Below are positions 9,335 through 24,441 of a DNA stretch of 44,113 nt, in pieces. The first letter of the stretch is position 1. Each line of letters starts with the position of its first letter. The position numbers and the translations under genes were made by a program. This stretch comes from an uncultured Granulosicoccaceae bacterium (GTDB lineage Bacteria > Pseudomonadota > Gammaproteobacteria > CALCKW01): the NCBI GenBank assembly GCA_937925815.1, contig CALAMQ010000023.1, positions 1-44,113 on the forward strand. Reading direction: 5' to 3'. The notes under the pieces were generated by a model that was not told the origin of the DNA, did no database searches, and saw nothing but the letters and a program-made list of their open reading frames with translations.

Positions 9335-9512
9335 GCTCCCTTGCACTCTCGAGCACCCTCACGCGGCAAAACTTGCCGCTTAGCGGTCAAGATTTTCCAC
9401 CGCATACCGACAAAAGCCACAGCCCCGACGTGCACCTGCTGCGCAGACCACGCTTGCGGCCGTACAGCCCGTGCCGTCCATCGCGGACACTTGCCACTTG
9501 TCGGAAGCCCTC

Positions 9513-11126
9513 ATGTTCCTTCGTCTAGCACTCGCCACCTTGATCAGCGCCTGTCTCACGCCGTGGCTTCACGCGGCAGATGCACCCGAAACCGTCGCAG
9601 GTGAAGGCGCACCGGCCTCGTTGGCCATAGCGCCTTTCGATGGCGGTGGCACACAGGCCATCTCGGTGCAGCACGGCTCACTTGGCGCGGTGTTCGAGGG
9701 TGACATTCTGTTGCAAGTGAGCGAGACCAGCGCATCAGATCGTGTGCTGGCGCGCGGCTTTGGCACGGCTGTGAACGGGGCGTTGTGGCCGGACGGCGTC
9801 TTGCCATACACCATCGACAGCTCGATCAGCAGTACGATGGAGTCGCGGATTTTATCGGCCATCGCGCATTGGAATCAGAAGACGCCGGTCACTATTGTCG
9901 AGCGCACATCGGCTAACGCGAGCAGCTACCCCAACTACGTGACCTTCACCGACTACAGCGGCTGTGCGTCGTACCTTGGGCGCATTGGTGGCCAACAACC
10001 CATTTACACAGGTTCAGCTTGCTCGACGGGCAATGTGATTCACGAGATCGGCCATGCGCTTGGGCTGTACCACGAGCACACCCGACCGGACCGGGATGAC
10101 CACATCCAGCTCAATTGGGGCAACATCAACAGCAGCTACAGCTACAACTTCGACATGGTGACATCCAATGTCACCACGACCAGTGCTTATGATTTGGGGT
10201 CGGTGATGCATTATGGTGAATATTTTTTCACAACGAACGGCCAAAAGACGCTCGAATCGATCTACCCAACAACCCTGGTGATCGGGCAGCGATCAGGATT
10301 GAGCGACCTCGACATAGCGGGCATCAACGCGCTCTACGCCTCTGAGGTTGACGCAAATTTCGGCATGACGCCGACACACCCGTACTCGAATCAAGCGATT
10401 GCGCTGCAATTGACATTCGACAACACGCAACACAGCAGCCTCGCACTGACTTCAACCCAGATCGACATTGCAAGCGGCGCCGCGTACGTTGGCAACCAAA
10501 ATAGCGATTGGAGTTGCACTCAATCGGGCAGCGCCGTCAATTGCGCCGGCCCAACATTGGGTCTCGGGCAGTCGAGTACACTGGACTTGAGCTTCACAGC
10601 ACCGGCCAGTGTCAGCAGCGATTTGCTGTTTTTTGCGACGTCGACCGTGACACCCTCCAGTGGCGGCGCCGTGACTCACACTGCCTCTGCGTCATTTGAC
10701 ATGACCTCGTATAACATGGCGCCAGTAATCACGGCCGGACAGTACTTTGCGGTGAGCAACACCTCTCTGGCGTCTGGCACTTATCTCGGGCGGGTCGAGG
10801 CGACGGATCCAAACGGTGATGCTGTGCAAGCCTGGCAACTGCTTTCAACTGATGCACCCAATGCCGTGCAAGTGGTCAGCGCAACCGGTGACCTCTTTGT
10901 CGACGACGCCGCGGCCTTCGCCGCAAGCATCGACAATGTGATTGCCATCGGGCTGAGTGCATCTGACGGTTCCCTGAACAGCGTCGAAACACAAGTGACC
11001 CTCGGCACGGGTGCGCCGGCCACTGCCGCGTTGACCAGCAAATCTGGCGACCCGGCCTCTGGTGCAGTATTCAGCCTGCTCGCTTTGATTGGGTTGCGTC
11101 GTAGAACAAAAATACGCCAAGCATGA
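9513..11126 (+). CDS. Secreted astacin-family (M12A) zinc metalloprotease with C-terminal sorting-type tail
   Basis: Extracellular or surface endopeptidase. A signal peptide (MFLRLALATLISACLTPWLHA) is followed by a catalytic domain of about 200 residues. This carries the full astacin signature HEIGHALGLYHEHTRPDRD (three zinc His and the catalytic Glu) and the Met-turn SVMHY. The C-terminal half is Thr/Ser-rich, with repeated beta-type segments that look like immunoglobulin-like or cadherin-like domains. The last 22 residues run Ser-Gly, a hydrophobic stretch (AVFSLLALIGL), then RRR, resembling GlyGly-CTERM or PEP-CTERM-type sorting signals. No VPEP motif is present. The ATG at 9513 is chosen over one 14 codons upstream because it starts the signal peptide and has GGAAG about 7 nt before it. 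About 537 aa. Confidence 0.9.
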   Translation: MFLRLALATLISACLTPWLHAADAPETVAGEGAPASLAIAPFDGGGTQAISVQHGSLGAVFEGDILLQVSETSASDRVLARGFGTAVNGALWPDGVLPYTIDSSISSTMESRILSAIAHWNQKTPVTIVERTSANASSYPNYVTFTDYSGCASYLGRIGGQQPIYTGSACSTGNVIHEIGHALGLYHEHTRPDRDDHIQLNWGNINSSYSYNFDMVTSNVTTTSAYDLGSVMHYGEYFFTTNGQKTLESIYPTTLVIGQRSGLSDLDIAGINALYASEVDANFGMTPTHPYSNQAIALQLTFDNTQHSSLALTSTQIDIASGAAYVGNQNSDWSCTQSGSAVNCAGPTLGLGQSSTLDLSFTAPASVSSDLLFFATSTVTPSSGGAVTHTASASFDMTSYNMAPVITAGQYFAVSNTSLASGTYLGRVEATDPNGDAVQAWQLLSTDAPNAVQVVSATGDLFVDDAAAFAASIDNVIAIGLSASDGSLNSVETQVTLGTGAPATAALTSKSGDPASGAVFSLLALIGLRRRTKIRQA

Positions 11127-11183: not shown

Positions 11184-13484
11184 CTAGAGCGAGCTGAAAT
11201 CGTCCGCGTCTTCGATGACCTTCTTTTTGCTGGCCTGGGCGCTGCCCTCTGAGTAGCCGTAGTAGTCGTAGTAGCCTTGGTAATAGTGGTCGCCACCGTA
11301 AGCCTTGAGCTTCTCGATATCGACTTGGGTCACAACCAAGCCCTTAATCGCGGCGCCAATTTGCTGCATGCGACGCACACCGCGCTGCGCAACTGGGAAC
11401 GGGGTTTCACCCGAACGCACCACATACAACACGCTATCAGCGTGGCGTGAGAGTACCAAGGCATCGCTCACTGCCTGAACCGGTGGGCAATCGATGATGA
11501 TGCGGTCGTAGTGTTTGCGAAGCTGCTCGAGCAAGTAGCCAAAACGCTTGCTTGAGATCAGCTCAAGCGGGTTGGCGGGCACGCCTCCAGCGGGCATGAC
11601 ATCCAGATTGCCAACCAAACCTTTGTAAATACAGTCAGCGGCACGCGCGGTTTTCTCAACAAGGTTAACAAGCCCGGGCGAGTCACTCGGAAGTCCAAGC
11701 GTTTTGTGCACGCTCGGTCGACGCATATCCGCATCGATCAGCAACACTTTTTCCATTTCAGACATGGAATGACCAAGGTTCACAGACAGCGTCGATTTGC
11801 CCTCGTTGGGCACGCTGGATGTGATGATCACAAGTTTGTCCGAGTCCTCGCCTCCGGCCAGCGTGAGGCCAGTGCGAATGGTGCGAATCGATTCGGCAAA
11901 GCTGCCCTTGGGGTCATTGAGATTAACCGGGCTCAACGCCAATTCAGTTGCTTTGCCTTGTTTGAGCTTTGGCAAAATGCCGAGCAGCGGAACACCCAGC
12001 TTGGATTCAATTTGATCAGAACCCACCACGCTATCATCGAGATACTCGCGCAAGAACGCGATGGCAACCGAACACATCAGGCCAAGCAAAAATCCGAGTG
12101 CCACCACAAGTGACTTCTTCGGCTTTGCCGGTGACAAGGGTGGCACCGCGGCGTCGGAGATACGCGCATTAGTGGAGTCCAAACTGCTCGCTTCGTCAGT
12201 TTCACGGAAGCGGTTAAAGAAGGTTTCGTACAGATTGCGGTTTGCGTCCACTTCACGCTGCAATTGATCAAGTTCAAAACTCTTGCGGGCAATGTCCTGA
12301 ATTTCCGACTTACCACCTGCAACGCGCGACTCGAGCGTGCGCACATTAGACTGCGCAAGTTCAAAGTCTTTCTGGATTGATGAGATGATGCGTTGAATTT
12401 CGAGATCGAGATTGCGCTCGATCACAACCAAGCGTGAGCGCGCATCGACCATACGTGGGTGGCGGTCACCGTAGCGGTTGGCTAGCTCGTCAATCTCCCG
12501 CTCAACCTGAGCCCGGTCGACCTTGTATGTCTGCACCAACGAGCTCGTTTGCACCGCAGGCAGGTTTTCCAACACATCGGGCGCGTTCGCTGCAAGGCGT
12601 TGCACTTCGTTATAGAGCGCTTCAGCCTCGGCCATCTCGCGCTGAGCATCAACCAATTTGTTTGAGAAATTGGCGAGCTCTTGCTCGTTGAAACGGGTGA
12701 CACCGCCACCGAAGTCGACAAGACCTGTGTCTTCCTTATAAGCCTGCAATTTCTCTTCAGACTCTTGCAACGCCACTTTCAGCACCGACAAACGCTCGGT
12801 CAACCAATCAGCAGCTTTGGCCGTCATCTCAGCTTTGGCATCGAGGTTATCTTCGATGTAAATCTCGCCCACAGAATTGGCAACATGGGCCGCGAATACA
12901 GCGTCAGGTGATTCAAAGCTCAGGCGCACGAGCTTGGTTTTGCGAACGGGTTCGACGCTCAAACGGCCGAGAAACTGTTGCGCTACAAAACGGCGACGCG
13001 TCTCCGGATCCATCGACCGCAGCAAATCCGAGCGTTGATCAAAACTGGCAGCTTCATCGCTCACGCCGAACAATTCACGCACGTAGCCGATGATGTCCAC
13101 GCCACTTGACGTCGTGAAATCTGGGTGTTCTGTGAGGTTGAGTTTGTCTGTGATTTTCTCAGCAAGCTCGCGGGACTTTAGGATTTCAAACTGGGTTTGA
13201 AAGTAATCCGAGTCTGTCGCATCGAATCCGTAGAGCTCTTGAATCGACACCACATTGTTCTGCTCGCCCTCAATAAGCAACGTCGACGTGGCCTGATAAA
13301 TCGGCGTCGCAGCGCTGACGTAAAGAAGTGCCAGGCCCGTGGTGAGCGCGGTGATCAGCGCTATCCACCACTTGTTCTTCAACAGGACGCGCAAATATTC
13401 TTTCAGATTGATCTCATCGTCACCACCGCGCGTGCTCTCGCGGTAGCCGACATCATCGTCCATGGATTGTTGAAAAATCGACAT
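11184..13484 (-). CDS. Polysaccharide co-polymerase / tyrosine autokinase (fused Wzc-like)
   Basis: Inner-membrane protein that sets chain length and phosphorylates its own tyrosine tail during exopolysaccharide assembly. The 766-aa protein has a Wzz domain with a first transmembrane helix at about residues 37-57. A long coiled-coil periplasmic region and a second membrane helix (KSLVVALGFLLGLMCSVAI, near residue 460) follow. The cytoplasmic BY-kinase domain has Walker A SSVPNEGKSTLSVNLG (about 550-565), Walker A' LLIDADMRRPSV and Walker B IIIDCPPV. The C-terminal tyrosine cluster HYYQGYYDYYGYS (about 730-745) is the expected autophosphorylation site. The Wza-like gene is transcribed just before it on the same strand, 66 bp away. 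A second, split co-polymerase and kinase pair lies at 20098-22494. Confidence 0.93.
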   Translation of the reverse strand: MSIFQQSMDDDVGYRESTRGGDDEINLKEYLRVLLKNKWWIALITALTTGLALLYVSAATPIYQATSTLLIEGEQNNVVSIQELYGFDATDSDYFQTQFEILKSRELAEKITDKLNLTEHPDFTTSSGVDIIGYVRELFGVSDEAASFDQRSDLLRSMDPETRRRFVAQQFLGRLSVEPVRKTKLVRLSFESPDAVFAAHVANSVGEIYIEDNLDAKAEMTAKAADWLTERLSVLKVALQESEEKLQAYKEDTGLVDFGGGVTRFNEQELANFSNKLVDAQREMAEAEALYNEVQRLAANAPDVLENLPAVQTSSLVQTYKVDRAQVEREIDELANRYGDRHPRMVDARSRLVVIERNLDLEIQRIISSIQKDFELAQSNVRTLESRVAGGKSEIQDIARKSFELDQLQREVDANRNLYETFFNRFRETDEASSLDSTNARISDAAVPPLSPAKPKKSLVVALGFLLGLMCSVAIAFLREYLDDSVVGSDQIESKLGVPLLGILPKLKQGKATELALSPVNLNDPKGSFAESIRTIRTGLTLAGGEDSDKLVIITSSVPNEGKSTLSVNLGHSMSEMEKVLLIDADMRRPSVHKTLGLPSDSPGLVNLVEKTARAADCIYKGLVGNLDVMPAGGVPANPLELISSKRFGYLLEQLRKHYDRIIIDCPPVQAVSDALVLSRHADSVLYVVRSGETPFPVAQRGVRRMQQIGAAIKGLVVTQVDIEKLKAYGGDHYYQGYYDYYGYSEGSAQASKKKVIEDADDFSSL

Positions 13485-13550: not shown

Positions 13551-14123
13551 CTAGAAGAATCCCTCTTCCACCGTAATGATGTCCCCCGGTTCGACACCGT
13601 CTTGGAATCGCATGCGCTCCTTCTTGTCGCCAGTCCCACGTTGCAAATAGATTTTTCGACGCGACGCGCGATCGGTGAAGCCACCTGCCACTGACACAGC
13701 TTTTTCAAGGGTCAAACCTGGCTGATAGGGGTAATCACCGGGCGAGCGCACCTCGCCATTGATGAAAAACGGGCGGTACTCAAGCACCGTGACGCTGACG
13801 CTGGGCTGCTTGAGGTAGCCGTCCATCAACCTTGCCGTGACTAACTGCTCGACCTCTCGACTGGTCTGACCGGATATCGTGAGCTCACCGAGAAAGGAAT
13901 AATTGATGACGCCACGGTCATTGAGCGTCGTCTCAACGGTGAGTTCGTCCTCATCAAACACTTTGATCAGAATTTTGTCGCCCGTGTTGAGGCGGTAGTC
14001 ATTGCCTACAACCAACCCATCAGCAGCATCTTCATCAGCAGACAACGCCAATGTTGGTGCTAGCGCGATGAGAGCGGTTACAACAATCGCGACAAGCGGA
14101 CGCAACATTTTATTGATCAACAT
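13551..14123 (-). CDS. Polysaccharide export protein (Wza-like, short form)
   Basis: Outer-membrane or periplasmic export component that links the co-polymerase to secretion. The 190-aa precursor has a signal peptide (LVAIVVTALIALAPTLALSA) without a lipobox Cys, unlike E. coli Wza. The mature part begins with the Poly_export domain (YRLNTGDKILIKVFDEDELT through SVSVTVLEYRP). One SLBB domain follows (FFINGEVRSPGDYPYQPGLTL...AVSVAGGFTDRAS). It lacks the second SLBB domain and the C-terminal membrane helix of full Wza, which fits the short partner type found beside beta-barrel exporters. The barrel gene upstream (27 bp away) may supply the pore. ATG at 14123. Confidence 0.92.
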   Translation of the reverse strand: MLINKMLRPLVAIVVTALIALAPTLALSADEDAADGLVVGNDYRLNTGDKILIKVFDEDELTVETTLNDRGVINYSFLGELTISGQTSREVEQLVTARLMDGYLKQPSVSVTVLEYRPFFINGEVRSPGDYPYQPGLTLEKAVSVAGGFTDRASRRKIYLQRGTGDKKERMRFQDGVEPGDIITVEEGFF

Positions 14124-14149: not shown

Positions 14150-15421
14150 TCAGAGGTTAGCGATCGCGCCAAGGTACAAATTGCGTGTTTCCGCATTACC
14201 GGCGATTTTATCGATATTCTGGGTTTCAAGCCCGCCAACCAATTGCAACCAGCGCCGTGGCGCAAAGCGCAACTCGGCACCTACCTGAGAATAGTCGCTA
14301 TTGGATGAACCATCAGCTTCTTCCTGTGACACTGTTTGTACCTTTATGCGCGTCGAAATTTTGTCGTTCCATTCGTGTCGCCACGTGACACCAAGCGCGC
14401 TGTTCTCACTGACCCCAGCACTGATGACCGAGTTATTCACTTGCTCAAACAAGCTGAACTCGAATCGACTGTAGGGCTTCCACAACCAAAAGAGCTTGGC
14501 GTCGGCAAGAACCGATTTGCTGTCTTCGAGTGTCGATGCATCAAAATCCCACTGGCGGTTGCGCAGACTCACGCTGCCAAACCAGAGGCCCGACAGCTCC
14601 CAAACAACACCCGCTGACACAGTCGTCGTATCGGCATCGCGTTTCACGCCATCCTCGTTGGGCTGGTCATAGTCGAGGCTGCGCAAAATCACATTGCCGA
14701 ACACACGCGTGCGCGGCGAAATGCGGTAATAAAGCTGTGACCAAGCCAGTGTGAAATCGCGATCGTTTTGGCGGGTCTCGTCTTCATTGCTGTTAAATGC
14801 AATCGATCCACCAGCAAGACCACCAACCAACTCGCCCTTCACCGACGGATTCCCATACGAAAAGGCCGCGCCAACTTTGTTGATGCGGTAGGTGTCGACT
14901 TCTTCTAGCGCATCAATGTCCGCATCTGAGAAGTTTAAAGTGCGCGAGAGACCTATTGACTGGTGGGATTGCGCCACGCTAGCTTCGAGATCGAGCCGCC
15001 GCCGAGAGTCGAACGCCGTGTGCGAGTTAACCGACAAGCGGTGATCCTGAAAATCCGCTTGAGGCGCGTCAGCGTGCTGACGGTAGTTGCCAAGGTAACC
15101 GAGCCACAGGGTTTGCTTAGCGCCACTCGCGATGTAATCGACTCGCGGGCTGAGCGTAAAATGACTGGTCTCGGTGGCAGCATCCGGGCTGACCTGCGAG
15201 AACACATTGTCAACTGAGCCAAATTGCAATGACACGCCTGGATAAATAGCGGCTTCACCAACGTCAAAAGCGATTGCGTTGCTGTTGGGGTATGCCGGCT
15301 GTGGCACTTCCTCTGATATCACAATCGGTGCTGACACAATCACCGGAAGTTGCGCGTGTGCCGCCGGAGTTGCTGCGATGATGACAATCAGTGCCGCCAA
15401 GCCGCGGGATTTGTGCTTCAT
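14150..15421 (-). CDS. Outer-membrane beta-barrel protein of the exopolysaccharide operon
   Basis: Probably the outer-membrane pore or an assembly factor for the exported polysaccharide. The 423-aa precursor has a signal peptide (ALIVIIAATPAAHA). The mature region is made of alternating short amphipathic strands such as FTLAWSQLYYRISPRTRVFG and LWFGSVSLRNRQWDF, a pattern matching the putative beta-barrel porin family (BBP2/EpsL-like). The ATG at 15421 follows GGTAG; upstream reading gives a Cys-rich, unlikely N-terminus. It is the first gene of the minus-strand group barrel, Wza-like, Wzc-like, preceded by a 308-bp gap with the regulatory candidates described there. The family assignment rests on pattern and context. 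Confidence 0.75.
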   Translation of the reverse strand: MKHKSRGLAALIVIIAATPAAHAQLPVIVSAPIVISEEVPQPAYPNSNAIAFDVGEAAIYPGVSLQFGSVDNVFSQVSPDAATETSHFTLSPRVDYIASGAKQTLWLGYLGNYRQHADAPQADFQDHRLSVNSHTAFDSRRRLDLEASVAQSHQSIGLSRTLNFSDADIDALEEVDTYRINKVGAAFSYGNPSVKGELVGGLAGGSIAFNSNEDETRQNDRDFTLAWSQLYYRISPRTRVFGNVILRSLDYDQPNEDGVKRDADTTTVSAGVVWELSGLWFGSVSLRNRQWDFDASTLEDSKSVLADAKLFWLWKPYSRFEFSLFEQVNNSVISAGVSENSALGVTWRHEWNDKISTRIKVQTVSQEEADGSSNSDYSQVGAELRFAPRRWLQLVGGLETQNIDKIAGNAETRNLYLGAIANL

Positions 15422-15445
15422 ATTTCTACCGTTAACAAAATAGAA

Positions 15446-15461
15446 AGAAAGGCGCCTTTCT
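15446..15461. promoter_or_regulatory. 16-bp palindrome in the leader of the barrel operon
   Basis: AGAAAGGCGCCTTTCT is a perfect palindrome 25 bp before the barrel start codon. On the minus strand it is followed by a T-rich stretch, so it may form a small hairpin (6-bp stem) in the leader or be a dimeric regulator site. Symmetry is seen; function is unknown. Confidence 0.4.
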
Positions 15462-15515
15462 ATTGCGCTGCTAACAACGCAGTTGACGCGATAAAGTGTG
15501 TACTGCGTAAGTGTT

Positions 15516-15532
15516 CGCAGCCAACACGCCAA
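15516..15532 (-). promoter_or_regulatory. Sigma-54-like promoter match for the barrel operon
   Basis: The reverse strand reads TTGGCGTGTTGGCTGCG. GG and GC stand 10 bp apart as required for -24/-12 promoters, with 9 of 13 informative positions of the consensus. The predicted transcript would have a leader of about 85 nt. Chance matches of this quality occur, so confidence is low. Confidence 0.33.
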
Positions 15533-15615
15533 TTTGCTGACACATAAAGTGACCATTGGGCTACAAACGCAATAGCTGTACCCATGCATGTCAGAGCCAA
15601 AAGTGTAGCCGCCCT

Positions 15616-15729: not shown

Positions 15730-17622
15730 GTGTGCGGTATAGCGGGATTTTGGCATTTCAAAACAGGGCTTCCAGCCACAGCGGACGCAGTCAAAGCGAT
15801 GACCGATCGCATCGAGCACCGCGGGCCTGACGGTGGAGGTGAGTACTGCAATGCCGATCTCGGACTTGGCCAACGGCGGCTATCGATCATCGATCTCGCC
15901 GGTGGGCACCAGCCCATGGCGAACGCCGAGGAAGATATTTGGGTGGTTTTTAACGGTGAAATATTCAATCACCGCGCACTACGCGCCGAACTCGAGGCAG
16001 ACGGCGTCCGGTTTCGCACCAGCAGCGACACAGAAGTTATTTCACATTGCTACCAAAAATACGGTGACACTTTCTCCAAAGCGCTCAATGGCTTCTTTGC
16101 CATCGCATTGTGGGACGTCAAACGACAACGGCTCATTCTGACACGCGATCGCCTGGGCAAGAAACCGCTGCTCATCGCCCACACTCAACACGGCATCGCC
16201 TTCGCCTCTGAAATGCAAGCCCTGTCTGCAGCCGAAGGGGTGTCCAAAACCCTCGACGTCAATGGCTTGGATGCCTTTGTCTCCTACGGCTACGTGCCGC
16301 ACCGGTTCTCAACGTATAAGGGCGTCACCAAACTCGCACCCGCAACCACCCTGTCAATAGAACGCGACGGTGCAGAACGTCAACAGTGTTACTGGCAAAT
16401 CGAACACAAACCAACCAATTTGAGCTATGAAGACGCCAAATCCGCGCTGTCTGAATTGATCGCGACCGCGGTGGCTGACCGCTTGGAATCGGACGTGCCG
16501 CTTGGCGCCTTCCTCAGCGGCGGCATCGACTCCACCACAATCGCCGCCTACGCAAGCGAGCAGTCCACCGAGCAGCTGCAAACGTTCTGTGTGGGTTTTA
16601 ACGAGCGCCGCTTTGACGAGCGGGCGCCGGCTCGCATGGTCGCGGAATGGTTGGGCACAGAGCACCGTGAATCGGTGGTTGATGTCGACGCTGCTGCCGT
16701 ACTGCCAAAACTGCTTCGCCACTACGGTGAGCCCTACTCCGACGCCTCGACCATTCCCACGTATTTTCTTTGTTCCGCAGTGCGCGAACACATGACCGTG
16801 GCGCTCAGCGGCGATGGCGGCGATGAATTGTTTCTGGGCTACCCGCACTACCCGAAATTTGAGAAGCGACTCAAACTCAATCGGCTTTTGAACGCCCTGC
16901 CCGGCAGCGGATTGATTGCCGATGTTGCACGCAACCGGTCGCGTCACTTGCGCAATTTGCCAGAACGTATCATCAACGCTGCACTCGAATCGGCCCTGCC
17001 TGTGCACGAAGCCTACGCACGCACCGTCACAACCTTCGTGCGCGGCGATAAACGCGAGCTCTATAACGACAGTTTTGCAAATGCGCTGACAGACACCGAC
17101 AACGTCGACCGTTACACCAGCGAGGTCTACGCCTCACACGCGGACCATGACTACATCACCCGCGCCGGCTTGACCGATATGCAGGTGTACATGGCCGATG
17201 ACATCCTTGCAAAAGTTGATATCTCCAGCATGGCGGCAAGCCTCGAGGTGCGCGCACCGCTGCTGGACTACCGCGTTGTCGAATTTGCGGCGAGCTTGCC
17301 ACAGGAATACAAATACAAAGATGGAAAAGGCAAACGCATCTTGCGCGATATCGCCAAAGACCGCCTGCCCGCTGAATTATTCTCGCTACCAAAATCAGGG
17401 TTTGGCATTCCAGTCAGCGATTGGCTGCGCGGCGACATGCGCGACATGGTTCACGATTCACTGCAAGACCCCAATAGCTTAATCGCTGATATGTTTGATC
17501 GGGCTGCAATTGACAAGATGATCGACTGGCACATGTCAGGCAAAGAGGGCTATGCCGAGCGTTTGTGGAAGCTCATGTGCCTTGGCGTATGGGCCAAAAA
17601 TGAGGGCGTTCGCTCGCTCTAA
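15730..17622 (+). CDS. asnB: Asparagine synthetase (glutamine-hydrolysing) type amidotransferase of the exopolysaccharide locus
   Basis: Transfers glutamine-derived ammonia to an ATP-activated carboxylate: aspartate in true AsnB, possibly a sugar uronate in polysaccharide clusters. The 630-aa protein begins MCGIAGF, with Cys2 as the glutaminase nucleophile. It continues with RIEHRGPDGGG, RLSIIDL and FNGEIFNH of the class II glutaminase domain. The synthetase domain has the PP-loop FLSGGIDSTTIAAYAS, then SGDGGDELFLGY and the late motif SLPKSGFGIPVSDWL. The length and domain layout also fit amidotransferases that accompany exosortase-type polysaccharide loci. The GTG at 15730 has GGAG about 11 nt upstream and exposes Cys2 correctly. 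It is the only rightward gene between two leftward polysaccharide operons. Confidence 0.92.
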   Translation: MCGIAGFWHFKTGLPATADAVKAMTDRIEHRGPDGGGEYCNADLGLGQRRLSIIDLAGGHQPMANAEEDIWVVFNGEIFNHRALRAELEADGVRFRTSSDTEVISHCYQKYGDTFSKALNGFFAIALWDVKRQRLILTRDRLGKKPLLIAHTQHGIAFASEMQALSAAEGVSKTLDVNGLDAFVSYGYVPHRFSTYKGVTKLAPATTLSIERDGAERQQCYWQIEHKPTNLSYEDAKSALSELIATAVADRLESDVPLGAFLSGGIDSTTIAAYASEQSTEQLQTFCVGFNERRFDERAPARMVAEWLGTEHRESVVDVDAAAVLPKLLRHYGEPYSDASTIPTYFLCSAVREHMTVALSGDGGDELFLGYPHYPKFEKRLKLNRLLNALPGSGLIADVARNRSRHLRNLPERIINAALESALPVHEAYARTVTTFVRGDKRELYNDSFANALTDTDNVDRYTSEVYASHADHDYITRAGLTDMQVYMADDILAKVDISSMAASLEVRAPLLDYRVVEFAASLPQEYKYKDGKGKRILRDIAKDRLPAELFSLPKSGFGIPVSDWLRGDMRDMVHDSLQDPNSLIADMFDRAAIDKMIDWHMSGKEGYAERLWKLMCLGVWAKNEGVRSL

Positions 17623-17651: not shown

Positions 17652-19121
17652 CTAGCTTTTCTTAAGATCAGGCGCCTGGGCCAACGTCGAGTTCTTGCCA
17701 ACTTGCATCGAGAGCGGCGCAGTTGCAGTCAGCCCACCTATGCCGGTCAAACCCGCAGCACCGGCAAGGCGTTCGCCCGGCGTCACAGCGGGCGTCTGAG
17801 CAGCGTCTTGCTTGGACGCAACCGATGGTTTAGACCGAGACTCGGTCTGGGTTGACACGAGTTCGCGGCGCGATACCTCAACTGCCGCAATCAGAATCGC
17901 CAAAAACAACCAACCTTGCTTGGTGTCGTAACTGACGTGTTGAATATCCATCAGGCTCAGGGTTGCAATTGTGACCAGAGCCATTCTAGGCACCGCATGA
18001 TGCCAGTCGCGGCGCAGCATCCCAACACAGCGAACAACCAGCGCGAGATAAATGCCGTAATACAGCAGTATGCCAACCACACCGGTTGCCACTAGGACTT
18101 CAATCACATTCGAGTGGGAGTACGCACCCATCAGCGCGCGAAAGTTATCGAGGCCAATACCGAGTAAATGACTTTCCAAAAGCAAATTCAAGCCTTGCTC
18201 GATCAACGCCAAACGTAATGACATCGACTCGCCGCCTTGCTCGGCCTGCACGCTGCCCGCGGTCAACACTCCTATAAAATCCCAGAGTCGGCTGATCGCA
18301 GAGTTGGGGTCTTCAAGTGAGAAAATACTATCGAGTCGCTCTGCGACCTCGGGTACATCTTTGAAGGTCAGATAGAGGCCCGCCGCGATGACAACAACCA
18401 CCGTTAGCATGGGTAAGGTTCGCACGAATTGACGTGCGCTCCACACGCGCATGGCCCAAGTCGACCCGAGCAACATCGCAATCATCCCAACCAGAGCCGT
18501 GCGCGATCCGCTGTTGAACACAGCGGCAACCAACAGCAAAGTCAGGATGGCCTGCACCCATTTGAGCTGGGTTGGCAGCTTGTGTGCGGCGGCGAGCAGA
18601 CAGAGTCCAAGCCCCATCACAGCTGCTGCACCAAATGTATTGGCGTTAGCCAGCGTGCTCGCTACGCGACCCGCCGGGTCAGCACCAGCAGCCGCCCCAC
18701 CACCAATACCAACGAAACTCAGCAGGTAGGCACCACTGACTGCCGCACCGTAGATGAGCAATGGCGCGATGGCTGAGTGTCGCCAGATGATGGCCTGGTG
18801 AATGGCAAGTGCCCACACCGCAAGCTGCAACATGGTCAGCACTTTGAACATTCCAGCCTCAACGTCGAATGCCAGTACGCTTGGAATCATCGCGTAGCAC
18901 AGCCACACCATGAGCAGCAGCCACTCGGCGCCAAACCAGACGGCTTTGCGCGAGAACATGCCAACTACGATCACCGCCAACAAGAACAACCCGGTCGCGC
19001 CATAGTTGACCAAATTTCCGCCGGGCAACTCGGCGACCAACATGGTCGAGAACACGTTGAGGCCAAGCAACAACGAGATCAGAATGACCCCGAAATCACG
19101 TTGAGTTTTGGCTTGCCCCAT
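17652..19121 (-). CDS. O-antigen ligase / polymerase-family membrane protein
   Basis: Probable polysaccharide polymerase or ligase in the inner membrane. The 489-aa protein has about 11 hydrophobic segments through residue 430. A large periplasmic loop around residues 255-310 is followed by SLRLALIEQGLNLLLESHLLGIGLDNFRALMGAYSHSNVIEVL, the Wzy_C pattern with the HSN motif typical of O-antigen ligase/polymerase proteins. A soluble, low-complexity tail of about 65 residues, rich in Ala, Thr and Ser, follows the last helix. ATG at 19121, 6 bp after the ExeA-type gene, so they are co-transcribed. This is the only polymerase candidate in the locus, and the substrate cannot be told. Confidence 0.85.
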   Translation of the reverse strand: MGQAKTQRDFGVILISLLLGLNVFSTMLVAELPGGNLVNYGATGLFLLAVIVVGMFSRKAVWFGAEWLLLMVWLCYAMIPSVLAFDVEAGMFKVLTMLQLAVWALAIHQAIIWRHSAIAPLLIYGAAVSGAYLLSFVGIGGGAAAGADPAGRVASTLANANTFGAAAVMGLGLCLLAAAHKLPTQLKWVQAILTLLLVAAVFNSGSRTALVGMIAMLLGSTWAMRVWSARQFVRTLPMLTVVVVIAAGLYLTFKDVPEVAERLDSIFSLEDPNSAISRLWDFIGVLTAGSVQAEQGGESMSLRLALIEQGLNLLLESHLLGIGLDNFRALMGAYSHSNVIEVLVATGVVGILLYYGIYLALVVRCVGMLRRDWHHAVPRMALVTIATLSLMDIQHVSYDTKQGWLFLAILIAAVEVSRRELVSTQTESRSKPSVASKQDAAQTPAVTPGERLAGAAGLTGIGGLTATAPLSMQVGKNSTLAQAPDLKKS

Positions 19122-19127
19122 CTGTGG

Positions 19128-20066
19128 TCAGCTGGCCCAGTAGAGCTTTCTGGCGAGCAAGGGCGCCGCGAGATCCTCGCTTGCAAAGCGGTTTCGAAAG
19201 GGCGCCACACGCGCCACATTGCGCAACGGGTTCTGCGCCAAATGTGACATTTGTAGCGCGATACCACCTCGGTTTCGGTCGCGCACCACAGAGGCAACGG
19301 TGTCGGCATCAACCATGACTTGCTGCTGCGAATACGCGTACACGAGACAGAGATCACAAATCGCATTGATTACCCGCGGCAGACCGTCGGCGTACTGGTG
19401 AATCAGGGTGATGGCGTCACCGGATATGACATTGGTGTCACCGCCACACGCATCAATCCGAAAACGGACATAGTCTGCGGTTTCGTCGCGCGTCAACGCG
19501 TCGAGGTGATAGTGCACTGAGATTCGTTGGCGAAACTGCGCCAAATCTGCCTGACGAATAGTGCGCCGAAGCTGCGTCTGCCCAACAAATAACACGGTGA
19601 TCAGCTTGTCGATTTCGTCATTGAAATTGACGATAAGGCGAATCGCCTCTAGATCATCAGCACTTAAATTCTGCGCGTCATCAAGCAACAGAATCAGCGA
19701 TTTGCCCCGCTTACTTTGCTCTTCGATGTAGCTGCCAAGGTGATTGACAAACTCCGGCAGACCAACGCCCTGCGAGCTCACACCAAAGGCGGCGCACAAC
19801 TGGGTTATCAGCGACGAGCGGCTGCTTGGCAAACAATTGATCTCAGCGACAACGGTCTGCGAGCCAACTTGATTGAGCACGTGGCGCACGAGCGTCGTTT
19901 TGCCCGTGCCGATCTCACCGCTCATCACGATGAAGCCCGGATTCTCCAAAATGCCGTATTCCAGAGACGCCGCCGCCACCCCGTGGTTCTCACCAAGGTA
20001 AATGTGGTCCGTGGCCGCGTGAATCGAGAACGGTTTGCGTTGGAAATTGAAAAAATCTAGGTACAT
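19128..20066 (-). CDS. ExeA/GspA-type AAA ATPase of the exopolysaccharide locus
   Basis: ATPase of the ExeA family, often found in polysaccharide loci that carry exosortase-type genes. The 312-aa protein starts MYLDFFNFQRKPFSIH, the family N-terminal motif. It has Walker A GEIGTGKTT (about 50-58), Walker B SLILLLDDAQNLS and the arginine-containing C-terminal helices (RQRISVHYHLDALTRDET, GLPRVINAICDLCL). There is no obvious peptidoglycan-binding domain or membrane helix, unlike Aeromonas ExeA. It sits between the polymerase-like gene (6 bp) and the BY-kinase gene (31 bp). Its exact job in polysaccharide assembly is not established; energy-dependent assembly or regulation is inferred. A related protein with an FHA domain is encoded at 22527-23720. 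Confidence 0.88.
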   Translation of the reverse strand: MYLDFFNFQRKPFSIHAATDHIYLGENHGVAAASLEYGILENPGFIVMSGEIGTGKTTLVRHVLNQVGSQTVVAEINCLPSSRSSLITQLCAAFGVSSQGVGLPEFVNHLGSYIEEQSKRGKSLILLLDDAQNLSADDLEAIRLIVNFNDEIDKLITVLFVGQTQLRRTIRQADLAQFRQRISVHYHLDALTRDETADYVRFRIDACGGDTNVISGDAITLIHQYADGLPRVINAICDLCLVYAYSQQQVMVDADTVASVVRDRNRGGIALQMSHLAQNPLRNVARVAPFRNRFASEDLAAPLLARKLYWAS

Positions 20067-20097: not shown

Positions 20098-20910
20098 TCA
20101 GTAGTATTTGGTTTTGTAGCTGTACGCGGAGTGCTTATCGCGCGACTTATTGAGGACGGTTCCGATCAAGTTGAACTCATCGAGCAACTCGACCGCACGG
20201 CGCACTTCGTTGCGTTTCGCATGGCCCTCTTCCACCACCAACAGGCAACTGTCGAGGTGCGGCAAAATGGTCAATGCATCGTCCGTTGCAAGCACCGGCG
20301 GCAAGTCAAAAATGACAATGCGCGACGGATAACGTGCAATCACTTCGCGCGTGAGTTCGACCACTTTGGGTGAGGCCAGCAACTCAGACGATCGGTTGCT
20401 CGGCTTGCCGCCGGGCAGTACAACTAAACGGTCAATCCCCGGATTGAACAACACTTCCTCGAGCGGTATTTCCTTGCTGATAAAGTGTTGCAGCCCCATC
20501 GGCCCGCGGTAGTCAAATAATTTTCGGATGGAGGGGCGGCGTAAATCGAAGTCGACGAGCAAAGCGCTGTTGTTCACTTTTTGCGCAATGCTGACCGCGA
20601 GGTTTGCTGAAGTCAGGCTCTTGCCCTGACCCGGTCCAGTGCTGGTGATACCAATAGATGTCCAGCCACCCGCATTGAGCTTGTGCATCACACGCGAACG
20701 CAACATGCGGTAAGCATCGGCGTATTCGTCGCGCTCACGCCCTGCCACGACACGGTTCTTGTACAGCGTCGCAGGCGGCGTCTCAACAACCGCCGTCTGG
20801 GTATATTCAAATTTGAGCTCGTCGACCACACGAAGGCGGCGCTGACTGCCACCGCGTGTGGTTGACATGTTCTCGCCAGACTTGTTGACCGCGTCTCTGA
20901 GAAATTCCAT
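20098..20910 (-). CDS. Cytoplasmic BY-kinase (CpsD/CapB/EpsG-type tyrosine kinase)
   Basis: Tyrosine autokinase that works with a separate membrane co-polymerase. The 270-aa protein has Walker A STGPGQGKSLTSANLA (about 87-100), Walker A' LLVDFDLRRPSI and Walker B IVIFDLPPVLATDD. The usual Cys of the Walker B CPP is Leu here. A tyrosine-rich tail SAYSYKTKYY ends the protein, giving four Tyr in ten residues as likely phosphorylation sites. The N-terminus (about 70 residues, including EYADAYRMLRSRVM) matches the linker typical of CpsD-like kinases. It starts 27 bp after the chain-length gene on the same strand, forming a split pair, in contrast to the fused protein at 11184-13484. ATG at 20910 with GGAG 11 nt upstream. 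Confidence 0.9.
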   Translation of the reverse strand: MEFLRDAVNKSGENMSTTRGGSQRRLRVVDELKFEYTQTAVVETPPATLYKNRVVAGRERDEYADAYRMLRSRVMHKLNAGGWTSIGITSTGPGQGKSLTSANLAVSIAQKVNNSALLVDFDLRRPSIRKLFDYRGPMGLQHFISKEIPLEEVLFNPGIDRLVVLPGGKPSNRSSELLASPKVVELTREVIARYPSRIVIFDLPPVLATDDALTILPHLDSCLLVVEEGHAKRNEVRRAVELLDEFNLIGTVLNKSRDKHSAYSYKTKYY

Positions 20911-20937
20911 TGATCGATTAGCTCCGAGTGCAGCGGA

Positions 20938-22494
20938 TCAGCCGCCAGTACTCAATTTGAGGTAGAGGAAGGCACCTATCAGCAACGGCGAGGCCACCAT
21001 TAAGACGTAACCCACCAGGCCCATCGCCGATTCACCCGTTCCCGAAATGCGCGAAATGACACCGAGCGGCGGCTCGCCGGTCAGACCGATAAGATCGCTG
21101 ACGTCGCGCACCGACCGGTCAAAGAAATCCATAAGGATCACGAAACCCAGCGCGCCGAAAAGCGCCATCAAGGTTCCGAGCACACCAACGGCGAGTCGAA
21201 CCGGCTTGTCCGGCGCAGTGGCGACAACCGGCGCTTCAATCAGCGTCAAGCGATCGCCAGTGTCACTGTTGCCAATAGCAATCGAGAGTTCCGCTTCAGC
21301 CAGCTTCGCGCGCGCCTCTTCAACTTCGGTGACCGCTTGGGAGTACTCGCGTTGCAACGCCAGATACTGTTTCTGGATCTCCGGTGCACCGGCGAGCCGC
21401 AACTCGAGGTTGTCGAGTTTGCTGCGCAACTCACCGCGCGTGATCTGCAGCGACCCCAATCGCGAGTCGATGGACCCAAGCGTTGAGCGCAGGGTGATGT
21501 AAGCGGGGTTGTCAGGCGCTCGCTCTATCGACGTGAGCCCAGAGTCCCCGGCCGCAGCCTCGGCTTCGCGCAATTGCCGCTCTAGTCGGCGGATGTCTGG
21601 GTGCTCTGCCGAGTACTTGCGGCGAGCTTCGGCGAGTTGCGTCTTGAGTACTCGCACGTTTTCATCGTTCGACAACACCGTGGTGCCATCGGTTGCAACC
21701 ATGCGGCCAAAGGGGTTGGTGTTGGTGAGTTCGGCTTCCACTCGGGCGCGCTCAAGTTGCAAGCTGCGAACCTCACCGTCAATTGCAAGCAATTGCGACT
21801 GCGTGCTTTGCACACTTTGAAAATTGGTTGCCGATTCCTCCGGCAATTTCCCGCTGTGCTCACGACGGAACTCCGTGAGTTGGGTTTCAAGTTCCTCTGC
21901 CGCCAGCGCCAACCGATCGGCGTTTTGGTTCAGGACGTTTGCCGTCGCCTCACCTTCACTCTGGCGCGCTGCGGTCGAGAGATCGAGCAGTTGCGCAGTG
22001 AGCGCCTCGGTTACAGCGTGCGCGGTCTCAGGATCCGGGTGACGAAAGGCCACTTCAAATGCCAAGGTCGTGGTAGACCGGCGCCCGGTGCGGTCATCGA
22101 CCAAATCTGCGTCGATGCGTTCGAATGCCATGGACTTGCGGAACGTGTCGATCACGCCCTGGGGTTTTTCCACATCCAGCGAAAAGACGTCGTACTCGCG
22201 AATCAATTGCTCGATGTTCGCGTTAGTCTGCATGCTCTGCTGCACGCGGGCGAGGCGCTTGTCCGCTTGTTTTGCAGCCTCGAGCGCATCAACGCCGGCG
22301 ACGGACTGCCGCTGAACTTGCAACGACGCACGCGATTCGTACTTGGGGGTCACCAAGGTCACGGCAACAGCCACCGCCGCCAACATGGCGTAGAGCGGCA
22401 AGAAAAACGCTAGTTTGCGACGTGCGAACACTTTAAACAGCCGCCCACCCTCCTGGCGATCACTGTCTAGCTGCACAAATTCGGATTCATTCAT
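20938..22494 (-). CDS. Chain-length determinant / polysaccharide co-polymerase (Wzz/EpsF-type, no kinase domain)
   Basis: Membrane protein that controls polysaccharide length and recruits the BY-kinase encoded next to it. In the 518-aa protein a first membrane helix at about residues 30-52 (FFLPLYAMLAAVAVAVTLVT) follows a basic cytoplasmic start. A periplasmic region of about 380 residues with strong heptad patterns spans roughly 170-400. A second helix lies at about 428-455 and a third hydrophobic segment ends the chain (LVGYVLMVASPLLIGAFLYL). The motif between the last two helices (DFFDRSVRDVSDLIGLTGEPPLG) is typical of Wzz/EpsF proteins. ATG at 22494; the ribosome site is weak. It is 32 bp from the ExeA-FHA gene upstream. 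Confidence 0.9.
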   Translation of the reverse strand: MNESEFVQLDSDRQEGGRLFKVFARRKLAFFLPLYAMLAAVAVAVTLVTPKYESRASLQVQRQSVAGVDALEAAKQADKRLARVQQSMQTNANIEQLIREYDVFSLDVEKPQGVIDTFRKSMAFERIDADLVDDRTGRRSTTTLAFEVAFRHPDPETAHAVTEALTAQLLDLSTAARQSEGEATANVLNQNADRLALAAEELETQLTEFRREHSGKLPEESATNFQSVQSTQSQLLAIDGEVRSLQLERARVEAELTNTNPFGRMVATDGTTVLSNDENVRVLKTQLAEARRKYSAEHPDIRRLERQLREAEAAAGDSGLTSIERAPDNPAYITLRSTLGSIDSRLGSLQITRGELRSKLDNLELRLAGAPEIQKQYLALQREYSQAVTEVEEARAKLAEAELSIAIGNSDTGDRLTLIEAPVVATAPDKPVRLAVGVLGTLMALFGALGFVILMDFFDRSVRDVSDLIGLTGEPPLGVISRISGTGESAMGLVGYVLMVASPLLIGAFLYLKLSTGG

Positions 22495-22526: not shown

Positions 22527-23720
22527 TCAGACGTTTTCCAGTTCCAGTGCGAATTCGCCCAGTTGAATGTGGTCGCCAACTGAGATCGCTTGGCGGTCAA
22601 TGACATCGCCGTTGACCAATGCTTTGTTGATGCCGCCGAGATCGATCAACGACACCGCGTCGCGCGTGACTTCAAGGCGCGCGTGCTGCCGACTGATGTG
22701 GCTGCTCTCTAGCTGAATGTCGCACTCCTGCGCGCGACCAATGGTGTATTCACCGAGCTTCAATTCAATTTCCACGCGCTCGCCCGCGGCATTGGAAATC
22801 ACCAAGCGGCGGGGTGGATTGCTGATCGATGTGACGGTGGCTGGCGGGTCAATTGTCGCCATGGGCGCCGCGCTCGGTGGCACAGGGTAGTTTGCGGCGT
22901 CGGCCGGAATCTCACCCTCTGGCAGAGTGTCGCCGCGCAACAATGCCAAGGCACGCCCCATGCTCTTGGCGCTGATGCGGCCCTCGCGCTGGGCTGCGCA
23001 CACGCTCAGCGCGCTGTCGAGTGCCCATCCCATGCGCCGGGGCACGCCGTCACTGAACGCATGAGCCGCGTCGATTGCCGCGGCGTCGATATCAAGCGGT
23101 TGTGCCGCGCCCGCAATGTGCCAGCGCGTCTGGATGTACATGTCACTGTCTTCACGTGTCATCGGTGCGAGCTCGGCCTTAAACCGAGTGCGCGCCGCGA
23201 TTCCCGCTGGCAGCGGTCGGGCCTCGTCAAAGCAACCGGCAAACACCACGCTCAAAGGACGTACTCCACCGCTGACGTGATTGGACAGCAGCGCCACGCG
23301 TTCGAGCACGTCATCACTGGCGAGATGAGCGTCATCAATCACCAGCAGCGCCCGCTGGTCCTGCGCCACGCAATCGTGCAGAAAATGTCCAATTGACGCG
23401 ACCAGAGCTGCCGCGCCCTCACCCTCGACCGCCACATCGAATCCACGCGCCACCGCGTGTAAGAGCTGATCGCTGTCCAAACTCGAAAAGCTGATCATAT
23501 TCAAAACATTGCTGCGATCGAGCTCGAAGGCCAGTCGGCGAAGCAATTGCGTTTTTCCAACCCCATGTTGCCCGTGCAGCACAGCGACCGGATCACTTTG
23601 CTGCAGCGCCACACACAAGGCGGCAAACGCACTCTCTGCAGTGGCGTGCGGCACGTACCACACGGAATCTGGGACATCGGCAAACGGAGGTGCCTTGAGC
23701 TGAAAATCTTGTAAGTACAT
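22527..23720 (-). CDS. ExeA-type AAA ATPase fused to a C-terminal FHA domain
   Basis: First gene of the leftward polysaccharide operon. The N-terminal ATPase starts MYLQDFQLKAPPFADVPDS, with Walker A GQHGVGKTQ (about 50-58) and Walker B ALLVIDDAHLA, and closes with the ExeA-like helices (RRMGWALDSALSVCA). After a proline-rich linker (about 275-305) comes an FHA domain (about 306-397) with GEYTIGRAQECDI, the phosphothreonine-site signature SSHISRQHARLEV and LIDLGGINKALVNGDVI. FHA domains bind phosphothreonine, so the protein may read a phosphosignal and connect it to the BY-kinase system. The fused form is uncommon in my knowledge. The ATG at 23720 is chosen because it matches the start of the paralogue at 19128-20066. 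About 397 aa. Confidence 0.88.
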   Translation of the reverse strand: MYLQDFQLKAPPFADVPDSVWYVPHATAESAFAALCVALQQSDPVAVLHGQHGVGKTQLLRRLAFELDRSNVLNMISFSSLDSDQLLHAVARGFDVAVEGEGAAALVASIGHFLHDCVAQDQRALLVIDDAHLASDDVLERVALLSNHVSGGVRPLSVVFAGCFDEARPLPAGIAARTRFKAELAPMTREDSDMYIQTRWHIAGAAQPLDIDAAAIDAAHAFSDGVPRRMGWALDSALSVCAAQREGRISAKSMGRALALLRGDTLPEGEIPADAANYPVPPSAAPMATIDPPATVTSISNPPRRLVISNAAGERVEIELKLGEYTIGRAQECDIQLESSHISRQHARLEVTRDAVSLIDLGGINKALVNGDVIDRQAISVGDHIQLGEFALELENV

Positions 23721-23919: not shown

Positions 23920-24441
23920 TCAGTCGGCCAAGGCGGCCCGGAGTTGCTCGAGGCCCTGGCGCAAACTGGTCGATTCCACCGGACTTGCCGCCACCAGTTG
24001 CTCTAGTTCACCCAGGCGATGCTCTAGCTGCGGGGACACATCAGACCGGGACTCGAGCAGCCCTCGGCAGGCGGCCAATTGATCCAACAACGTGCTCACC
24101 GCAGGCCTGCTCAGTGGCGAAACGCTCTCCTCGCTGAGCCCAAAAAAGCCTGAAAGCGCTGGGAAATAAGCACTTGGCCGGTCTGGATCAATTTTGGCGA
24201 GATTGAGGGCCGCGAGCCCGACGGGTGACAGGCAGATTGAGCCCGCCGGGGTCACAAGCGAAATCAACCTCGCGTCACAGAGCTCGCGCACCAGCGATTG
24301 TAAAGGCTCCTCCCGGAGACCCAAACTCTCCCCGAGCGCCCACATATCGACACTCACAGCGGTCTTGAACTCACAGGCTGTGGCCAGTTGATGCAACAAC
24401 GTGAAGCACTGCTCAGGGTGGGTCAGAGACATGGTTGCCAT
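23920..24441 (-). CDS. Hypothetical protein with winged-helix-like N-terminus
   Basis: I do not recognise a named family. The 173-aa protein has an N-terminal half that reads like a winged helix: MWALGESLGLREEPLQSLVRE as helix-turn-helix, then LCDARLISLVTPAGSICLSPVGLAAL as wing and final helix. The C-terminal half is helical with Leu- and Glu-rich stretches (LEHRLGELEQLVAAS, LRQGLEQLRAAL) suited to dimerisation. No membrane segment or signal peptide. It is encoded just upstream of the ExeA-FHA operon on the same strand, with a 199-bp gap containing inverted repeats, so it could be a local regulator. ATG at 24441; a second ATG three codons later is equally possible, as neither has a strong ribosome site. 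Confidence 0.55.
   Translation of the reverse strand: MATMSLTHPEQCFTLLHQLATACEFKTAVSVDMWALGESLGLREEPLQSLVRELCDARLISLVTPAGSICLSPVGLAALNLAKIDPDRPSAYFPALSGFFGLSEESVSPLSRPAVSTLLDQLAACRGLLESRSDVSPQLEHRLGELEQLVAASPVESTSLRQGLEQLRAALAD

Follow-up and report, generated by a model that had tools for sequence, protein, structure and literature searches.

An ExeA-type ATPase with an FHA domain heads a conserved exopolysaccharide operon in an uncultured Granulosicoccaceae bacterium and may place it under Ser/Thr-kinase signalling

An exopolysaccharide operon headed by an unusual fusion gene was found in the 3.56 Mb genome (99% complete) of a marine bacterium, for which uncultured Granulosicoccaceae MAGs are the nearest named records. 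In the window, that is, the whole stretch of 44,113 nucleotides that was analysed, a gene coding for an ExeA-type AAA+ ATPase with a C-terminal FHA domain opens a minus-strand run of five genes, followed by those for a Wzz chain-length protein, a BY-type tyrosine kinase, a second ExeA-type ATPase and a membrane protein resembling Wzy; the successive genes are separated by about 32, 27, 31 and 6 nt (Table 1). The sequence-only reading of this DNA had already placed the fusion gene first in a run with a chain-length protein, a tyrosine kinase and a second ExeA-type ATPase, and gene order and Pfam/NCBIfam matches agree with it. The arrangement is no chance pattern, and the feature was confirmed to be real and conserved. 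Judged from sequence, context and analogy, the reading of a phosphosignal is its most likely mechanism, and the best explanation would be an FHA-docked AAA+ subunit that tunes polysaccharide assembly, to which we assign a probability of roughly one half.

Table 1. Positions of the fusion gene, its domains and the surrounding assembly genes in the window
Feature	Position	Strand	Remarks
ATPase-FHA gene	22527..23720	minus	ExeA-type AAA+ ATPase + C-terminal FHA, 397 aa; ATPase residues 1-262, linker 263-304, FHA 305-397
ATPase domain	22935..23720	minus	residues 1-262; Walker A G50-T57, Walker B D129 D130, R177, R228
FHA domain	22530..22808	minus	residues 305-397; contacts R329, S343, H346, N365 retained
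Wzz/chain-length protein	20938..22494	minus	best NCBIfam match TIGR03007 (XrtA type), 151.6 vs cut-off 278.85 bits
BY-type tyrosine autokinase	20098..20910	minus	best match TIGR03018, 172 vs cut-off 230.65 bits; over TIGR01007 cut-off; C-terminal tyrosine cluster
Second ExeA-type ATPase, without FHA	19128..20066	minus	TIGR03015, 242 vs cut-off 324.5 bits
Wzy/O-antigen-ligase-like membrane protein	17652..19121	minus	Pfam/NCBIfam
Asparagine-synthase-type amidotransferase (TIGR03108-like)	15730..17622	plus	strand opposite to operon
Outer-membrane beta-barrel (BBP2_2)	14150..15571	minus	
SLBB polysaccharide export protein	13551..14123	minus	
Wzc-type fused co-polymerase/BY-kinase	11184..13484	minus	second assembly set

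Both domains of the fusion protein were recognized far above the Pfam cut-offs, AAA_22 (PF13401) at residues 42-164 with 60.2 bits (cut-off 27, E 3.5e-16) and FHA (PF00498) at residues 325-388 with 57.6 bits (cut-off 20.7, E 1.8e-15). Direct inspection of the sequence revealed the ExeA-type start MYLxxFxLxxxPF, the Walker A motif GQHGVGKT, the Walker B motif LLVIDDAH and the arginine R177, and the residues expected of Walker A, Walker B and the conserved arginines (K56, D129, D130, R177, R228) are all in place. The FHA part displays the motifs GR329, S343-R-Q-H346, N365 and V-N370-G371, so that the phosphothreonine site retains its Arg, Ser, His and Asn. The loop near N365 is altered, presenting NK or NR where NG is usual and, in three of the four genus members, G363 instead of the usual Ser, which could change the specificity of the domain. 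The description of a P-loop ATPase with an ExeA N-terminus and of an FHA domain in one protein was therefore borne out by the Pfam scores and the motifs; its coordinates were exact, and the strand, which had not been given, is minus. Scores of this protein against the OdhI, FhaB and TagH models of NCBIfam were all far below cut-off (for TagH, TIGR03354, 29 versus 120.25 bits). The protein is probably cytoplasmic, since no strongly hydrophobic segment was found in it (maximum 19-residue hydropathy 1.29).

The AlphaFold2 model, obtained with a 32-sequence alignment, presented two confident domains (mean pLDDT 87, pTM 0.64) and predicted disorder at linker residues 274-300. Its ATPase part resembled the Cdc6/ORC, MuB and TnsC ATPases (Z 18-21), and its FHA part adopted the predicted beta-sandwich fold of the FHA domains of GarA (Z 16.7, rmsd 1.6, 94 residues) and of FhaA bound to its partner Rv3910 (Z 16.3, rmsd 1.2, 91 residues), both of which bind phosphothreonine. 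OdhI and GarA were also the best PDB sequence matches and, together with the Thr residues that the disordered linker carries just before the FHA domain, this could fit an autoinhibition in cis in the GarA/OdhI manner, in which a phosphorylated Thr of the protein's own linker would fold onto the FHA domain and lock the ATPase. However, the linker is the least conserved part of the protein (17-38% identity) and no single conserved linker Thr could be placed confidently, and such self-locking is considered improbable.

Three other genomes of the genus encode orthologues of the fusion protein, with 76, 69 and 44% identity, the last one in G003. In G001 and G003, the genes for the fusion protein, Wzz, BY-kinase and second ATPase adjoin one another, and the G002 contig stops after Wzz. 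Given that the Wzy and amidotransferase genes are absent from the corresponding place in G003, the conserved unit is this four-gene block. The fusion protein is its fastest-evolving member (68% identity in G001, versus 84, 91 and 88% for its neighbours), and the identity across the three relatives was 86/77/53% for the FHA core, 80/71/44% for the ATPase domain and 38/33/17% for the linker; conservation of the FHA core equals or exceeds that of the ATPase domain, in contrast to the linker. The search of a phylum-wide sample of 397 genomes with the genus profile yielded no further full-length protein of the window type, and the plasmid records searched gave ATPase-only matches.

Other elements were observed in the window and in the genus. 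Two co-polymerase/BY-kinase sets lie within 12 kb, one as the fused Wzc (11184-13484) and the other as the split Wzz and kinase (20098-22494), and a promoter scan of the region gave fewer matches than shuffled sequences. A secreted metalloprotease with an astacin-like HEIGHALGLYHEH motif is encoded at 9471-11126, and its C-terminal tail of small residues, hydrophobic residues and Arg resembles a sorting signal. Positions 23920-24441 code for a fast-evolving protein of 173 aa, with no Pfam or NCBIfam match, whose gene sits just upstream of the fusion gene in all four genus genomes. Moreover, a second exopolysaccharide locus with SLBB, Wzz, BY-kinase and barrel genes is present in the genus (L215, at G000:C69:1-20000, and also L216, where the SLBB gene was not detected, and L217). 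In the L215-type locus, Wzz exceeds the TIGR03007 cut-off (320.5 bits), sugar-nucleotide and glycosyltransferase genes are present, and no ExeA ATPase is adjacent.

The operon is reminiscent of the XrtA/PEP-CTERM systems. The N-terminal 252 residues of the fusion protein aligned to TIGR03015, the XrtA/PEP-CTERM ATPase, the first 250 covering nearly the whole profile, and the kinds of neighbours that accompany this ATPase (TIGR03007-like Wzz, TIGR03018-like kinase and TIGR03108-like amidotransferase) match those in the window. In contrast to the TIGR03015 ATPase, however, the fusion protein scored 114.5 bits against a cut-off of 324.5, carries an FHA tail and belongs to a genome devoid of exosortase, as no PF09721 match was found in the 99% complete window genome or in the three relatives. 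A wholly standard XrtA/PEP-CTERM locus was consequently rejected, since the exosortase is absent and the relevant models, including those for the Wzz and the kinase, fall under their cut-offs (Table 1).

The ExeA-FHA fusion itself turned out to be widespread. A profile made from eight ExeA-FHA proteins was run over 369 gammaproteobacterial genomes, and about 30 matches, spread over about 26 genomes (roughly 7% of those sampled), extended through the FHA region; a scan of named genomes added proteins from Steroidobacteraceae and others. The idea that this architecture is unique to the window operon was thus discarded, and the family is wider than the sequence-only reading supposed. These widespread proteins share domain order, spacing and contact residues with the window protein, from which they differ by their low identity (22-27%) and by being mostly outside polysaccharide loci. 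No paper combining ExeA or AAA ATPases with FHA, or exosortase with FHA, was found in searches of the open-access literature, either for the operon protein or for the wider family, which is consistent, within open-access papers, with the earlier suspicion of a largely undescribed module.

Alternatively, the FHA domain could act as a scaffold. In type III secretion, the FHA-like cytoplasmic domain of SctD is a phosphorylation-independent scaffold, and the FHA region of the window protein exceeded the cut-off of the corresponding Yop-YscD_cpl model (PF16697; 54.4 versus 33.2 bits), as would be expected if it fixed the ATPase to the Wzz/BY-kinase complex irrespective of phosphate. Nevertheless, the contact residues are kept over very divergent ExeA-FHA proteins, R329 and H346 in 32/32 and S343 and N365 in 31/32, and a pure scaffold is regarded as unlikely. 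Most of the readable ExeA-FHA neighbourhoods consist of unrelated housekeeping genes, such as purE/purK, tldD/pmbA-like, queC and ABC transporters, and therefore the FHA domain need not have an exopolysaccharide role. In fact, as these genes are widespread and mostly solitary, the window protein could be a general signalling ATPase merely located in the operon and acting elsewhere. Against it stand the co-location with Wzz, BY-kinase and second ATPase, conserved in the genus even in G003 at 44% identity, and a second lineage whose exopolysaccharide operon contains the fusion; among the alternatives weighed, this one is considered the least probable. One ExeA-FHA family adjoins an adenylate-cyclase-FHA gene, and at L107:280-1170 (G292) and L017 (G064) a nucleotide-cyclase-FHA gene directly follows the ExeA-FHA gene, placing two FHA proteins in one small operon.

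The second lineage, the unrelated family f10, was the only other one found with ExeA-FHA in an exopolysaccharide operon among the neighbourhoods inspected. In three of its genomes, the genes for SLBB export protein, Wzz, BY-kinase, outer-membrane barrel and ExeA-FHA are consecutive, and in the fourth the barrel and ExeA-FHA genes lie at a contig end. This operon is of the XrtA type, with SLBB and Wzz proteins that score above the XrtA-family cut-offs, and the ATPase with the FHA tail, which occupies the usual place of the ATPase, reached 267 bits to TIGR03015. Similarly to the window, the f10 fusion gene (L144:7887-9167) belongs to an operon with Wzz and BY-kinase in a genome without exosortase; unlike the window, where the fusion gene is placed first, the f10 operon has a single ATPase, placed last, whose ATPase domain is an ordinary member of the ExeA-FHA clade. 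The sequence-only prompt to search databases for this architecture and its neighbours thus had a double outcome, as the fusion proved common and its exopolysaccharide placement recurs.

A tree built from 95 ATPase domains grouped the general ExeA-FHA proteins in one clade (support 100/99) and placed the window clade outside it, on a branch of 3.1 changes/site, a length that makes the separation in the free tree unsafe. A single clade for all ExeA-FHA proteins was not rejected by the AU test (p 0.468), and both one and two fusion events appear compatible with these results. Related operons of families f82, f120 and f135 carry an ExeA ATPase of the same ATPase clade with a different, FHA-free tail. 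ExeA ATPases inside the ExeA-FHA clade were also observed with a different, apparently helical tail in place of FHA (L023, L125, L127 and L130), several of them in exopolysaccharide operons, and a loss of FHA in exosortase-bearing genomes is possible. ExeA ATPases devoid of FHA are common in exopolysaccharide operons, and the FHA domain is therefore dispensable for the basic machine.

Exosortase was found in none of the four genus genomes and four f10 genomes, and hence the FHA-bearing exopolysaccharide operons are exosortase-less in 8/8 genomes, which represent only two lineages; it was present in 4/4 genomes carrying FHA-less relatives of the ATPase. Of 20 XrtA-type Wzz loci drawn from genomes with no exosortase match listed, four had an adjacent ATPase, which lacked FHA, and in the others no adjacent ATPase was found. 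Therefore, exosortase absence does not predict FHA, the strict version in which the FHA ATPase accompanies exosortase loss was rejected, and the association, seen in few lineages, is a lead only.

Concerning the origin of the phosphate, the absence of Ser/Thr kinases from the window, reported from the sequence alone, agrees with the search of the genome, in which the two kinases over cut-off both lie outside the window; therefore, a phosphate source exists. One of them, L039:7223-8611 (G000:C89), is fused to a cyclic-nucleotide-binding domain and is a candidate writer. In G000, G001 and G003 its gene lies between galE and mpl, near a glycosyltransferase gene, and in G002 it neighbours galE and mpl. 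The location of the nearest Ser/Thr kinase outside the operon counts against the best explanation. Ser/Thr kinase matches occurred in 15/15 ExeA-FHA genomes examined and also in 3/3 FHA-less comparison genomes; an enrichment of kinases with ExeA-FHA was thus not seen, and the presence of kinases does not point to a special link.

In the favoured explanation, the cytoplasmic AAA+ ATPase, of the ExeA/TIGR03015 kind, would serve the co-encoded polysaccharide-assembly complex composed of Wzz, BY-kinase, second ExeA ATPase and Wzy. The FHA tail, on its flexible linker, would bind a Thr-phosphorylated segment of a partner, which could be a product of the operon or a Ser/Thr kinase, and this docking would recruit or release the ATPase, tuning polysaccharide assembly. 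Hanks-type Ser/Thr-kinase signalling would thereby be coupled to the assembly or export of the chains, in parallel with the BY-kinase's tyrosine cycle. The suggestion that the fusion protein may read a Ser/Thr phosphosignal and gate polysaccharide assembly is partly supported by the intact FHA contacts, the stable operon, the genomic kinases and the second exopolysaccharide occurrence, and is weakened by an architecture that is not special to the operon.

Like the window protein, GarA/OdhI, FhaA, TagH/Fha1 and Rv1747 possess FHA domains with phosphothreonine-contact residues, and to our knowledge none of them has an ExeA-type ATPase. FhaA, TagH and Rv1747 act on envelope or secretion machines. 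FHA control of an envelope machine is presented for PknB-CwlM-FhaA-MviN in PMC6180346, and Rv1747 and PpkA-Fha1 are reviewed as FHA precedents in PMC6213207, where the phosphatase-like PssZ is also noted to be needed for rhizobial exopolysaccharide.

The broader proposal is a dual-phosphorylation control, in which a Hanks-type kinase would mark a partner that is read by the FHA-tailed AAA+ ATPase within the Wzz/BY-kinase machine, in at least two exosortase-less gammaproteobacterial lineages; it is put forward tentatively, as the odds are against it. What ExeA-type ATPases do in exopolysaccharide loci is not well established, and the cycling of BY-kinases is usually treated as a matter of tyrosine only. 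If true, the dual reading would represent an added control layer on exopolysaccharide assembly. The conserved FHA tail on an operon ATPase provides a concrete entry point to Ser/Thr-phosphate control of this process, and Ser/Thr-kinase signalling may act as a switch for exopolysaccharide assembly in these bacteria.
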